Shown: positions 6,179 through 11,390 of the stretch, piece after piece
How positions within the stretch are numbered: position 1 is the first letter of the stretch
How the letters are laid out: every line of letters begins with the position of its first letter
Assembly (NCBI GenBank): GCA_012522805.1
Contig: JAAYJS010000003.1
Coordinates: forward strand, 1 to 39,641
Source: Eubacteriaceae bacterium
GTDB lineage: Bacteria; Bacillota; Clostridia; Eubacteriales; Eubacteriaceae
Direction of reading: 5' to 3'
Length of the DNA: 39,641 nucleotides
Made by a program: the position numbers and the translations under genes
Notes under the pieces: model-generated
Told to the model about the DNA's origin: nothing
What the model saw: only the letters and a program-made list of their open reading frames with translations
The model's database searches: none

Positions 6179-7237
6179 TCATTGGTTTTTAACTTCCTGC
6201 CAAATATCGTCGTAAATTTTTACCATATCTCCAGGATCTCTAAAGACTTCCAATTTTTCTAAAACTTTTTTAGGCGGATACGCCACCTCACTGTTTTGAA
6301 GTTCCTCTTCCAGTAACTCTTTAGCTGCTGTGCTGGGAATTGAGTACCATATAAACTCAGCGTTTTGAGCTGCATTTTCCGGTGCCAACATAAAATTAAT
6401 AAACTTTTCTGCATTTTCCGGATGTTGAGCGTTTGCCGGTATCACCATGGCGTCAAACCATAAATTAGACCCTTCTAAAGGAATTGCATAGGCTAAATCC
6501 TCATTTTCAGAAAGGGCCTCCACTGCATCGCCGGAGTACATTACAGCTAAGGCTGCCTCTCCGTTAATCATAATATCCTTAGTTTGATCTACCAAGTAAG
6601 CATAAACCAAGGGGTATTGTTCTTTCAGTAAAGCTTCTGCTTCTTTTAATTGATCGAAATCTGTGGCATTCATAGAATAACCCAATAAAGCCAAGGCAAT
6701 ACCAATAGAATCTCTGGAGGAGTCCAACATCACAATTTGTCGTTCATACTTTTTATTCCAAAGGATCTCCCAAGATTCTACAGGATCTTCCACCAAAGTC
6801 GTATTGTAAACAATGCCTAAAGTCCCCCAGAAAAAAGGGGCAGAGTACTTCTGGTTTGGATCGTAGGAGTGATAAAGATATTCCCGATCTACGTATTTTA
6901 AATTGGGTACATTTTTCCAATTGATGGGGCGCAACATATCTTCATTGCTCATTTTTTCTATCATATAGTCCGAAGGTACCACCACATCGTAATTGGATCC
7001 ACCGTTTTTCAATTTGACGTACATGTCTTCGTTGGTGTTGAAATTCGAGTAGATGACTTTGACACCGGTTTCTTCTTCAAATTTTGTGAGAAGATCCTTA
7101 TCGATGTACTCCCCCCAATTATAAATATTGACAATATTTTTTTCGTTTTGAGCTTTATCTGAGCAGGAGGATGTCACACATAGAATTGCGACTAAACAAA
7201 TTGCAACGACTATTTTTAAACCGTATTTTTTCATCAT
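6179..7237 (-). CDS. potD: Spermidine/putrescine-binding lipoprotein PotD
   Basis: PotD is the extracellular substrate-binding subunit of a polyamine ABC importer. The 352-residue protein opens with a lipoprotein signal peptide: Lys3-Lys4, a hydrophobic core, and VTSSC with Cys25 as the likely lipid-anchored residue; the Thr at -3 is not the commonest choice. The mature part has features of the PotD/PotF family: NIYNWGEYID near the N-terminus, GVKVIYSNFNTNEDMYVKL, VPSDYMIEKM and the WGTLGIVYN segment. It is the last gene of potABCD and ends one base before a strong terminator. Spermidine versus putrescine preference cannot be read off safely. Confidence 0.94.
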   Translation of the reverse strand: MMKKYGLKIVVAICLVAILCVTSSCSDKAQNEKNIVNIYNWGEYIDKDLLTKFEEETGVKVIYSNFNTNEDMYVKLKNGGSNYDVVVPSDYMIEKMSNEDMLRPINWKNVPNLKYVDREYLYHSYDPNQKYSAPFFWGTLGIVYNTTLVEDPVESWEILWNKKYERQIVMLDSSRDSIGIALALLGYSMNATDFDQLKEAEALLKEQYPLVYAYLVDQTKDIMINGEAALAVMYSGDAVEALSENEDLAYAIPLEGSNLWFDAMVIPANAQHPENAEKFINFMLAPENAAQNAEFIWYSIPSTAAKELLEEELQNSEVAYPPKKVLEKLEVFRDPGDMVKIYDDIWQEVKNQ

Positions 7238-7242
7238 CTCTC

Positions 7243-8010
7243 CTACTCCGCACTTTTTGTTCTCAGATTCATAATGAGCATCAGCAACAACATCGTCCCG
7301 AAAATCAGTGCAGACAGCGCATTGATTTCAGGGTTAATGCCTCTTCTTGCCATGGAAAAGACCAACGTTGAAATGGTTTCAACTCCGTGGCCTGTCGTGA
7401 AAAACGATACGACAAAATCATCGACAGACAAGGTAAAAGCCATCAAGGCACCGGAAAAGATACCCGGTTTAATATAAGGGATGATGACCTTCCATAGGAT
7501 TTGTGCCGGTGTCGCCCCTAAATCCATGGCTGCTTCCGGAAGTGTTTGGGGCATTTGCTTTAATTTTGGCAAAACCGATAAAACCACATAGGGCACTGTA
7601 AATGCGATATGGGATAAAATCAAACTCAGCCGTCCAAAGTCCAACCCCAAACTGCGATACAAAACCATCAAACCCACAGCGATGACGATGTCGGGATTCA
7701 TGACGGGTATTTGATTGACAGCAAGCAATGCATTTCTTAGGTTTTTTCTATATTGTGAAATGCCGATGGCACCCAAAGATCCGATAATGGTTGAAACAAC
7801 GGTTGAAACAGCGGCCACAAAAAAAGTGTTCTTGACCGCTGATAAAATCTCGGCATCTTCTATCAAGAGTTGGTACCAAATTAAGGAAAAATTGTCCCAA
7901 CTCCCCCTGGTTTTCCCTTCATTAAAAGAAAAAACAATGAGGACCACAATCGGAGCATATAAAAATGCATAGATGACTGTCAAGTAGGTTCGTTTCCAGA
8001 ATTTAGTCAT
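7243..8010 (-). CDS. potC: Spermidine/putrescine ABC transporter permease PotC
   Basis: PotC is one of the two membrane permeases of the polyamine importer. The chosen start is the ATG of MTKFWKRTYLTVIYAF, 255 residues in all. It has GGAGG 6 bases upstream and matches the N-terminus of E. coli PotC; the frame stays open upstream, but that region is inside potB. About six membrane segments are visible, and the cytoplasmic EAA loop that contacts the ATPase reads EAAMDLGATPAQILWKVIIP. The motif FTLSVDDFVVSFFTTG is typical of PotC. The gene overlaps potB by 8 bases and ends 6 bases before potD. Confidence 0.95.
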   Translation of the reverse strand: MTKFWKRTYLTVIYAFLYAPIVVLIVFSFNEGKTRGSWDNFSLIWYQLLIEDAEILSAVKNTFFVAAVSTVVSTIIGSLGAIGISQYRKNLRNALLAVNQIPVMNPDIVIAVGLMVLYRSLGLDFGRLSLILSHIAFTVPYVVLSVLPKLKQMPQTLPEAAMDLGATPAQILWKVIIPYIKPGIFSGALMAFTLSVDDFVVSFFTTGHGVETISTLVFSMARRGINPEINALSALIFGTMLLLMLIMNLRTKSAE

Positions 8011-8890
8011 AATGCACCTCCTGTTGGTTGGTCTCCGGAAAAGCCACATCCTGATGAGTGTCCACCATATCGCTGGCTGAGGCATGCACTTTGTCTCTTT
8101 CTTCTCGGTCCGTGAAAAACAAAGACACCAATAAGAAGAGCATCAACACCACAGAGATGGCCGAACCGTAATGCCAATCGCCGGTTACGGTAAATTGTTG
8201 CTCAATGACATTGCCGATCAAATTCGTTTTATTACCACCTAACAAAGCTGTGATCTCAAAGGTGGAAATAGCCGGGATAAACACCATAGCCACTCCGGAC
8301 ACAACCCCCGGTAAGGATAAAGGAAAAATGACCTTTACAAAGGTTAACACCTTATTACAGCCTAAATCCGCTGCGGCTTCAATCAATCCCTGATCCATTT
8401 TTTCTAAAACCGTGTATATCGGTAAAATCATAAAGGGCAAAAAGTTATACACCATACCTAAAACAACAGCCCAATCGGTATATAAAATATCTAAGGGACC
8501 AAGACCGACCATCCTCAGCAAAGAATTTAAAATTCCGTTTTTAGATAAGATCGTCACCCACGCATATGTTCTGAGTAAAAAATTCATCCACATCGGTATC
8601 ACGATGAGCATGATTGCCGTTGCCCGGTAGCGTCCGGAAGTGCTCATGGCAATGATATACGCAAGAGGATAGCCGATGATCAGACATATAACTGTGGATA
8701 TCAAAGCGATTTTGAGGGATTGAAACAAGGTGCCCAAGGTACTGCCCGAAAAAAAGCGTACAAAATGTTGGGTGGTGAACTGGCCCGTTTCTCCGGTAAA
8801 GGCGTAAAAAATGACCATGAAGAGCGACACGACGATGAAGATAAGCGCCCAAACAACATAAGGTGCAGAAAGGTTTTTAAAGTGCTTCAT
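8003..8890 (-). CDS. potB: Spermidine/putrescine ABC transporter permease PotB
   Basis: PotB pairs with PotC to form the polyamine channel. The 295-residue protein has about six membrane helices and the EAA loop EAAADLGCNKVLTFVKVIFP, and shows the PotB-like RTYAW segment after the third helix. It starts 10 bases after potA with a ribosome site AGGTGGCGG. After the last membrane segment (ending LVSLFF) there is a hydrophilic, acidic tail of about 40 residues with no recognised motif. Confidence 0.94.
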   Translation of the reverse strand: MKHFKNLSAPYVVWALIFIVVSLFMVIFYAFTGETGQFTTQHFVRFFSGSTLGTLFQSLKIALISTVICLIIGYPLAYIIAMSTSGRYRATAIMLIVIPMWMNFLLRTYAWVTILSKNGILNSLLRMVGLGPLDILYTDWAVVLGMVYNFLPFMILPIYTVLEKMDQGLIEAAADLGCNKVLTFVKVIFPLSLPGVVSGVAMVFIPAISTFEITALLGGNKTNLIGNVIEQQFTVTGDWHYGSAISVVLMLFLLVSLFFTDREERDKVHASASDMVDTHQDVAFPETNQQEVHYD

Positions 8891-8900
8891 TACCCGCCAC

Positions 8901-9935
8901 CTAACCTTTTCTCATAACATGGATATTGTCCGGTATCACTCGAATGCCTACGGTATCGCCTACATCTCTGGCAATGGTAGAATGCGCAAGGTACACTTCA
9001 TTTCCGGTATCGATTCTCATTTCATAATGAACACCTAAAAATAAGCAAGACAACACCCTACCGGTCAACATCCCCTCTTGTGGCGAGACAATTTCTACAT
9101 CCTCCGGTCGAATCACGACATCTACCTTTTCGTCAGTTTTAAAACCGACATCCACACATACAAATCGATGATTAGAAAAAGTTACATCATAATCGCGGTG
9201 CATCACCCCTTCTATGATATTGGATTCTCCGACAAAATCCGCAACATAAGCGTTGCTCGGCTCATTGTAAATACCGATGGGAGTTCCAATTTGCTGAATA
9301 ACCCCTTCATTTAAAACAACAATGCGGTCGGATAGCGTTAGGGCCTCTTCTTGGTCGTGGGTTACAAAAATAAAGGTGATACCGGTTTCCTGTTGGATAC
9401 GTTTTAATTCTACTTGCATATCCTTTCTGAGCTTTAAATCTAAGGCGCCTAAAGGTTCGTCCAACAATAGCACCTCCGGACGGTTCACCAAAGCTCTTGC
9501 CATGGCAATGCGTTGTTGTTGCCCTCCGGAAAGCGATTCCACCCGTCGTTTGTCGAAGCCCCGTAAGTTTACCAAATTCAGCATTTCTCCAACTCTCTTT
9601 TTAATTTCAGCTTCTTGGATTTTTTTAATACGCAAACCAAAGGCAATGTTTTCATACACATTTAAATGGGGAAACAATGCGTATTGTTGAAATAAGGTAT
9701 TGACCGGTCTTAAGTATGGTGGTAAATGGGTAATATCTCGGCCTTCAAAGATAATAGAGCCGCTGTCGGGGGTTTCAAAACCACCGATAAGCCTGAGAAT
9801 CGTCGTTTTGCCACAACCGGAAGGACCCAAAAGCGTTAAAAATTCGTCTTCCTCTATGCCAAGGTTTAAATCTACCAAAACCGGGTGATCATCAAATGCT
9901 TTATTAATATTTTTCAATTCAATTTGTAGTGTCAA
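8901..9935 (-). CDS. potA: Spermidine/putrescine ABC transporter ATPase PotA
   Basis: PotA is the ATP-hydrolysing subunit of the polyamine importer. In its 344 residues it shows Walker A GPSGCGKTT (37-45), the Q-loop FQQYALFPH (82-90), the ABC signature LSGGQQQ (135-141), Walker B LLLDE (156-160), the H-loop VTHDQEEA and a C-terminal TOBE domain from about residue 240. The start is a TTG (9933-9935) with TAGGAGG 8 bases upstream; no ATG fits better. The gene follows a short upstream ORF by 19 bases, and that ORF follows a terminator-like hairpin, so expression may be controlled in the leader. Confidence 0.95.
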   Translation of the reverse strand: MTLQIELKNINKAFDDHPVLVDLNLGIEEDEFLTLLGPSGCGKTTILRLIGGFETPDSGSIIFEGRDITHLPPYLRPVNTLFQQYALFPHLNVYENIAFGLRIKKIQEAEIKKRVGEMLNLVNLRGFDKRRVESLSGGQQQRIAMARALVNRPEVLLLDEPLGALDLKLRKDMQVELKRIQQETGITFIFVTHDQEEALTLSDRIVVLNEGVIQQIGTPIGIYNEPSNAYVADFVGESNIIEGVMHRDYDVTFSNHRFVCVDVGFKTDEKVDVVIRPEDVEIVSPQEGMLTGRVLSCLFLGVHYEMRIDTGNEVYLAHSTIARDVGDTVGIRVIPDNIHVMRKG

Positions 9936-9954
9936 TAAAATTACCTCCTATGCT

Positions 9955-10014
9955 TTATGTAAATGCTTCATTTCTCAATATGACTGGTTGAATTCTACTC
10001 AATGGTTCTAACAT
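9955..10014 (-). CDS. Possible 19-residue leader peptide upstream of potA
   Basis: A short frame, MLEPLSRIQPVILRNEAFT, has an ATG placed 5 bases after a good ribosome site (AGGAGGG) and ends 19 bases before the potA TTG. It is preceded by a promoter-hairpin unit, so it lies in the mRNA leader of the polyamine importer. Ornithine- or polyamine-sensing leader peptides are known elsewhere (speFL in E. coli), but this peptide is not obviously related to them. Composition is not skewed to one amino acid, so it is not a classic attenuator peptide. It may be a translational coupler, a sensor, or chance. Confidence 0.45.
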   Translation of the reverse strand: MLEPLSRIQPVILRNEAFT

Positions 10015-10053
10015 AAACCCTCCTATTATTGGTTTTTTCATTCTATCCTGCAT

Positions 10054-10107
10054 AAAAAAACATCGCCTACAGCCCTTGGAAAAACGCATAAAGCTATCAA
10101 CGATGTT
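10054..10107 (-). promoter_or_regulatory. Terminator-like hairpin in the pot leader (candidate attenuator or riboswitch)
   Basis: Right after the likely transcription start, the minus strand folds into a 7-bp outer stem, AACATCG/CGATGTT (10101-10107 with 10059-10065), a symmetric 3x3 internal loop and a 5-bp inner stem (10093-10097 with 10069-10073, one G-U pair). The closing arm runs directly into a T tract (10054-10060). It could end transcription early, before the leader peptide and potA. The 19-base apical loop could hold a ligand site or pseudoknot. No known riboswitch consensus was recognised. Confidence 0.5.
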
Positions 10108-10112
10108 CTTTT

Positions 10113-10141
10113 ATTATACAACGATTGCCGGATTGAAGCTA
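10113..10141 (-). promoter_or_regulatory. Likely promoter of the pot operon
   Basis: A perfect -10, TATAAT (10113-10118), lies 6 bases before the leader hairpin. The -35 at 17 bases is weak (TAGCTT, 10136-10141), which suggests help from an activator or low basal use. Transcription would begin near 10106, so the hairpin is at the very 5' end of the message. Confidence 0.5.
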
Positions 10142-10181
10142 TTAAATTTTTTATATTATATTTAAAGTTCGGCTCTAACAA

Positions 10182-10216
10182 TAAACCCTGCAACTTCTAT
10201 CGTTGCAGGGTTTTAT
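10182..10216 (-). terminator. Rho-independent terminator of the mannitol operon
   Basis: A 9-bp perfect stem CCCTGCAAC/GTTGCAGGG (10186-10194 and 10202-10210) with a 7-base loop is flanked on both sides by A/T runs, so it can work in both directions. It lies 32 bases past the mtlD stop. Confidence 0.85.
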
Positions 10217-10241: not shown

Positions 10242-11390
10242 TTATCTTTTAACCGCATGGTAAGCCCCTATGATTTCAGCAATCAAGGTGTTGTCATCTA
10301 AACCGGTGATGTCTTTTAAAACCGCATCTAAGGGTTCTTGTTCTTTTCTCTTTTTCAGTTCCATGCTTTGATCATCGCCAATATTTTCATAGCATAGTAT
10401 TTTACCAACCACGGCCAGTAAGGTTTTGTAACTAAAGCCTCTTTCTCTTAGCTCACGAATCGGTCGGATAAAGCGTTCGTTATAGCCCAGCTTACGAATA
10501 GGTGTTCTGCCGACTCTGGTAAGTTCGTCAGAAATAAAGGGATTGATGAACCGTTCCACAATTTTTTTCTTGTAGGCATCGTGTTGCTCTTCATCAAAAT
10601 GCCACTTATCGATTAAAAGAGTTCCGGTTTCATCCAAGACATCCTTTAAGGTTTGAAGAATTCCTTCATCTTTCAGGGCTTCATCCACAGTGGTATAACC
10701 GGCGTACATTCCGGAATAAGCCACCGTCGCGTGCCCAGTGTTAACAGAAAACAACTTTCTTTCGATATAAGGCTTTAAATCTTCGACATAGTGAACACTA
10801 TTCAACTCGATTTGTGTCGCTTTGCGATTTTTATTTTCTATGATCCATTCCTTAAAAGGTTCGACCGAAACAAATAACGGATCCTTAGGAGATTGAATCG
10901 GTACGATCCGGTCCACCGCTGCATTCGGAAAACCGACGTATTCTTCAATATAAGCCTTGTCTTCTTCGGTTAAGAAAGCTTCCATTTTTGAGTAAAGGAA
11001 TTCGCTACCGCCGATCATATTTTCGCAAGCGATGATATCGATGGGGGTTTCATTGCCTTTTTTACGACGTTTGCGGATACCTTTAGCAATCAGTTCCACA
11101 ATAAAGGGTATGACATTGGGACCGATAGCTGTGGTGACAATATCGGAAGTGGCAACGGAATTGATGGCAGCTTCCGGGTTTTTCGCATTATTAATACCGG
11201 TTACATTGGTGATATGAATGGTATCTCTACCTTCGTGGGCAAGGCCGATATGGTATTCCCCTCGGTTGATCAATGCATTGATGATCTTTTCATTAATGTC
11301 AACAAATTCGATGAAGAAATTGTTGTCAGCAAGAACTTCTCCGATAAAGCCTCTGCCGATATTACCGGCACCAAAATGTGTGGCTTTCAT
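10242..11390 (-). CDS. mtlD: Mannitol-1-phosphate 5-dehydrogenase
   Basis: MtlD oxidises mannitol-1-phosphate to fructose-6-phosphate with NAD+, feeding mannitol into glycolysis. The 382-residue protein is of normal length. It opens with the dinucleotide-binding motif HFGAGNIGRGFIG; the family segments ACENMIGGSEFLY, GFPNAAVDRIVP and NTGHATVAYSGMYAGY follow. The gene starts one base after mtlF ends and is the last of mtlA-mtlF-mtlD, so uptake, phosphorylation and oxidation of mannitol are made together. Nothing unusual was seen in the protein. Confidence 0.96.
   Translation of the reverse strand: MKATHFGAGNIGRGFIGEVLADNNFFIEFVDINEKIINALINRGEYHIGLAHEGRDTIHITNVTGINNAKNPEAAINSVATSDIVTTAIGPNVIPFIVELIAKGIRKRRKKGNETPIDIIACENMIGGSEFLYSKMEAFLTEEDKAYIEEYVGFPNAAVDRIVPIQSPKDPLFVSVEPFKEWIIENKNRKATQIELNSVHYVEDLKPYIERKLFSVNTGHATVAYSGMYAGYTTVDEALKDEGILQTLKDVLDETGTLLIDKWHFDEEQHDAYKKKIVERFINPFISDELTRVGRTPIRKLGYNERFIRPIRELRERGFSYKTLLAVVGKILCYENIGDDQSMELKKRKEQEPLDAVLKDITGLDDNTLIAEIIGAYHAVKR

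Follow-up and report, generated by a model that had tools for sequence, protein, structure and literature searches.

A terminator-like hairpin and a small open reading frame in the leader of a clostridial potABCD operon

In the 39,641-nucleotide stretch of DNA analysed here (the window), the minus-strand region between mtlD and the polyamine import operon potABCD carries a terminator-like hairpin followed directly by seven T residues and, further downstream, a small upstream open reading frame (uORF) led by a Shine–Dalgarno (SD) sequence. Both the hairpin and the SD-led ORF exceed chance. The most satisfactory reading of the leader is a 5' terminator or attenuator specific to this lineage, in which the uORF is incidental or secondary; that a 5' intrinsic terminator limits read-through into potABCD is held with moderate confidence, and conditional control of this termination is plausible. 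The elements from which the original prediction started, i.e. a TATAAT, a two-tier hairpin, a T tract, a ribosome site and a 19-codon ORF ending 19 nt before a TTG start, are all present on the minus strand.

Organization of the locus and candidate promoter

The genes and signals around the leader are as follows.

10242-11390, minus strand: mtlD, the gene upstream of the leader
10178..10213, minus strand: hairpin, CCCTGCAACGATAGAAGTTGCAGGG then TTTATTGTT, likely the terminator of mtlD
10113..10118, minus strand: TATAAT, candidate -10 box
8901..9935, minus strand: potA (344 aa, TTG start at 9935), first gene of potABCD
8003-8890, minus strand: potB, operon member
about 7243-8010, minus strand: potC, operon member
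6179-7237, minus strand: potD, operon member
6177-6140: strong terminator, which the end of potABCD precedes

Since mtlD appears to have a terminator of its own upstream of the leader, potA would need its own promoter; and because the leader hairpin comes after the mtlD terminator, it is not needed to end mtlD. We infer promoter use from the TATAAT in front of the hairpin, and potABCD would then have its own leader of about 175 nt. No -35 element was found at the usual spacing from this TATAAT, and a promoter scan with a threshold of 9/12 or better listed no promoter at this position, nor did it find a better one between the hairpin and potA. A second TATAAT lies at 10160-10155 on the minus strand, and the motif is cheap in A+T-rich sequence such as this intergenic region, which is 33% G+C. 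The leader promoter is weak, and its TATAAT, unlike the hairpin and the SD-led ORF, is not beyond chance.

The hairpin and T tract

10059..10108, minus strand: two-tier terminator-like hairpin, with a 10-bp lower stem and an 8-bp upper stem with G-U pairs
10054..10060, minus strand: T7 tract directly after the hairpin, whose first bases can also pair with the 5' A-rich flank

The hairpin follows the TATAAT directly, its arms being GAACATCGTT.ATAGCTTT...AGGGCTGT.GGCGATGTTT at 10108-10059, and with the T tract it lies in the 5' leader in the orientation of potA. The energy of its core is about -18.8 kcal/mol (roughly -19), and reaches -22.7 kcal/mol when the A-rich and T/U-rich flanks are paired. 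None of 500 dinucleotide shuffles of the 242-nt leader gave a hairpin of this strength before a T run (the best shuffle gave -16.2 vs -17.8 by the same measure). Hairpins of about this strength or more are nevertheless not rare before T runs: in a genome sample made up of six stretches (97 kb) and the window, coding DNA included, they precede about 50 of 1133. The fold of the leader from 10125 to 9930 has a z score of -2.1; that of the plus strand of 9955-10141 (z -1.1) is uninformative. The stem is poor in G-C pairs, and the A-rich flank can pair with some of the T tract; both features may weaken termination.

From this arrangement we infer termination and any conditional control of it: soon after initiation, polymerase would transcribe the hairpin and a U7 tract, which together would form an intrinsic terminator, and only a part of the transcripts, possibly a regulated part, would reach potA.

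The small ORF and the potA start

10019..10023, minus strand: GGAGG, the SD of the uORF, 4 nt upstream of its ATG
9955..10014, minus strand: uORF of 19 codons, MLEPLSRIQPVILRNEAFT, from ATG 10014 to TAA 9957-9955
9944..9949, minus strand: AGGAGG, a strong SD for potA, 8 nt upstream of the TTG

Translation of the uORF is probable. Only 10 of 500 dinucleotide shuffles of the leader yielded an ORF of 15 codons or longer behind an SD. The uORF frame remains open for 44 codons (9955-10089, minus strand) and has a further ATG at 10089, within the hairpin, so that the 19-codon start rests on its SD; the 44-codon reading from ATG 10089, which has no SD, is disfavoured. A different frame crosses the hairpin without a stop over 51 codons (10038-10193, minus strand); no good SD was seen for it, and it is probably due to chance.

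The position of the uORF limits what it could do. Its SD lies 30 nt and its ATG 39 nt downstream of the T tract; polymerase is therefore past the termination point before a ribosome loads on the uORF, and translation of the uORF cannot steer the terminator. A classical leader-peptide (ribosome-mediated) attenuator is thereby rejected, as the uORF is neither upstream of the terminator nor overlapping it. The original prediction stands only in part: a terminator or attenuator is plausible from the chance statistics and from the analogy with a sister genus described below, but the uORF, being downstream of the T tract, could not govern it. As for potA translation, the uORF stop lies 19 nt from the TTG and 5 nt from the potA SD, a spacing that permits translational control in that a ribosome paused at the stop would cover this SD. 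Dependence of potA on the uORF is, however, not required by the sequence since potA has its own AGGAGG at 8 nt, and this part of the original prediction found no support. The 19-codon ORF would thus lie outside any terminator switch and might at most tune potA translation locally.

Pairing between the hairpin and the potA start is also conceivable.

9952..9959, minus strand: CATAAAGC, beside the potA SD and perfectly complementary to GCTTTATG in the hairpin (10094-10087); possible alternative pairing

The complementarity is exact over 8 nt, GCUUUAUG (10094-10087) with CAUAAAGC (9959-9952), and at least 8 pairs were reached in 18 of 1000 shuffles in a test devised post hoc. An alternative fold, in which GCUUUAUG binds CAUAAAGC and the U tract binds an A-rich stretch, has an energy of -30.5 vs -34.6 kcal/mol for the best fold, i.e. 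4 kcal/mol above it, and appears on blocking the 5' arm of the hairpin.

Searches for known RNAs and for relatives

A covariance-model search of the leader against Rfam gave no match at gathering thresholds and only sub-threshold chance matches at permissive ones, in agreement with the earlier remark that no known riboswitch class could be recognized. SAM-I (RF00162) did not match the leader at gathering or at E values up to 10, and the ldcC RNA (RF02440) had no match in the window. No DNA homologue of the leader was found in 60 relatives of the family or order (none of the same genus) or in plasmids. The genome has no other full copy of the leader, only weak matches of 22-38 nt, so that the leader is not a repeat. 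The nearest PotA in the collections searched, from Murdochiella, is 68% identical and is preceded by an unrelated leader, and viral contigs held only distant PotA homologues. No known clostridial potA leader was found in the literature.

Gene content was compared as well. Many clostridial potA genes follow a gene for an XRE-cupin regulator, which was seen on the same strand as potA in 24 other loci; it is absent at potA in the window, and the genome itself has only a weak helix-turn-helix match elsewhere. The genome encodes an OKR-type decarboxylase. It gave no match to the spermidine synthase family, and may for this reason depend on imported spermidine.

Leaders of potA in other clostridia

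A sister genus in the family, with a PotA about 57-58% identical to that of the window, has a potA leader of the form AAGC-AACGAAYC-GCUU / CCCUGGG-GAAAG-CCUGGGG / U7 / GCUU, nearly invariant across species (loci L038-L043, L045, L047, L050, L051 and L143, upstream of potA). It is more conserved than its surroundings and, in the eight genomes with the pattern, occurs only at potA. Like the leader of the window, it places a terminator-like hairpin with a T7 tract between the promoter region and a potA with a TTG start; unlike it, it lacks the 19-codon ORF, and there is no evident sequence similarity between the two. Several further features of these leaders were observed. The AAGCAA has two alternative partners, the near GCUU and the UUGCUU that follows the T tract; the second hairpin is present in three tandem copies in L038 (G023); and a two-codon ORF that shares bases with the potA TTG start is conserved, as ATGAATTGA or ATGACTTGA (L038-L051, e.g. 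GGAGGATTTATGAATTGA). Among the 111 potA genes examined, 41 were called with a TTG start; calling was by SD only, and the species are not independent.

Six other clostridial potA leaders have in common an unannotated element, AAAACYCUUUG(UCA or CGG)...(UGA or CCG)CAAAGGGGGAUGC, found in L060, L061 and L062 (just upstream of potA), L168:1496-1602, L169 (same place as L028) and L170:1496-1595. Its 10-bp stem covers the potA ribosome site, and the pairing is kept through two-sided changes (UCA/UGA vs CGG/CCG). Four of these loci were scanned against Rfam with no match, and the element is a candidate cis-regulatory RNA for polyamine import. In three clostridial loci the ldcC RNA (RF02440) precedes potA, scoring well over its gathering threshold (L026:2347-2399 on the minus strand, L058:2633-2682 and L063:2632-2686), a position that links this orphan RNA to polyamine import. 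The conserved potA leaders of other clostridia are more striking than the leader of the window.

Comparison with known systems

Attenuation in a potABCD leader has already been proposed: an attenuator, the ABC-leader, was predicted in Haemophilus somnus and Pasteurella multocida (Naville and Gautheret 2010, PMC2965389). Compared by description rather than by sequence, it resembles the leader of the window in having a predicted intrinsic terminator ahead of potABCD, but it is conserved in two species and has a predicted antiterminator, whereas the window offers a weak alternative fold only. A class of spermidine riboswitches, variants of SAM-I, acts through transcription termination of polyamine genes in Gram-positive bacteria (Salvail and colleagues, PMC10853860); these have a four-stem SAM-I scaffold, absent in the window, and precede biosynthesis genes (speE, speB, ldcC and metK constructs). 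In Borrelia burgdorferi, spermidine-dependent 5' RNAs of potB are premature mRNA ends in a spermidine importer operon, as would be those of an attenuated leader, but they end inside the potB coding region while the hairpin of the window is in the leader (PMC10319736). The Haemophilus and Pasteurella attenuator and the Borrelia RNAs are precedents for conditional control here, while broader support for leader control of pot operons comes from the sister-genus leader and from the XRE-cupin gene, frequent before clostridial potA and missing in the window.

Like the leader of the window, speFL of Escherichia coli and Salmonella has a short ORF before a polyamine gene. The speFL ORF precedes the control hairpins, and the uORF of the window differs from it in both sequence and arrangement, as the original prediction had noted for the peptide.

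Alternative explanations

The hairpin, at the extreme 5' end of the transcript, could protect the mRNA from decay without appreciable termination. Known 5' mRNA stabilisers sit at the extreme 5' foot of a transcript, and transcription would likewise start at the foot of the stem if the TATAAT at 10118-10113 were the -10 box; a stabiliser, however, needs no T7 tract directly after its stem, and the whole proposal, rather unlikely in our view, leans on a putative promoter. It is distinctly unlikely that the hairpin only backs up the terminator of the mtl operon, or is a relic, with potA transcribed from a downstream promoter or by leakage and the uORF incidental. The mtlD terminator is only about 70 nt upstream of the hairpin and a TATAAT without a -35 makes a promoter before the hairpin uncertain, yet two terminators in series are unnecessary and the promoter scan offered nothing better downstream.

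Three further explanations would make the leader a sensor. The uORF could sense translation in the manner of speFL, with polyamines or a precursor setting the pausing of a ribosome that covers the potA SD from the uORF stop, or through coupled reinitiation. The good SD of the uORF and its spacing to the potA SD would suit such a role, and uORFs that respond to polyamines are known to control other genes (reviewed in PMC10319736); but no peptide homologue was found that would show conservation, potA has a strong SD of its own, and the sister genus does without such an ORF, so that this is quite improbable. Still less probable, and to be regarded as very doubtful, is a single switch joining the hairpin to the potA start, in which GCUUUAUG would have two alternative partners, one within the terminator and the other CAUAAAGC at the uORF stop, and polyamine-set ribosome occupancy at the end of the uORF would decide between them, feeding import back on both transcription and translation. 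Almost no credence can be given to a new riboswitch that binds polyamine directly: gene context and the alternative fold pairing GCUUUAUG with CAUAAAGC favour it, but no Rfam class matches, SAM-I included, one hairpin of 50 nt would make a small aptamer, and no conserved relatives were found.

A 5' terminator that limits read-through into potABCD is supported because the hairpin with its T tract is well formed, goes beyond all 500 shuffles and comes after the mtlD terminator. It is supported also because the sister genus has an analogous hairpin with T7, because the XRE-cupin gene is missing, and because of the precedent in Haemophilus and Pasteurella. Counting against it are the missing -35 element, the features of stem and T tract that may weaken termination, and the failure to find a homologous leader in the 60 relatives.

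Significance

Feedback of polyamines on potABCD is putative, as is the place of this leader as a further case of the leader terminators of transporter operons; as it stands, this is a plausible though ordinary leader element. Little is known of how clostridia control polyamine import at the RNA level, and here a genome with neither a spermidine synthase match nor an XRE-cupin gene at potA carries a terminator-like leader instead. Across loci, the pattern fits a picture in which a neighbouring regulator controls some pot operons and leaders of various kinds control others. If the leader does attenuate transcription, it would be another case for pot operons repeatedly acquiring unrelated leader controls.
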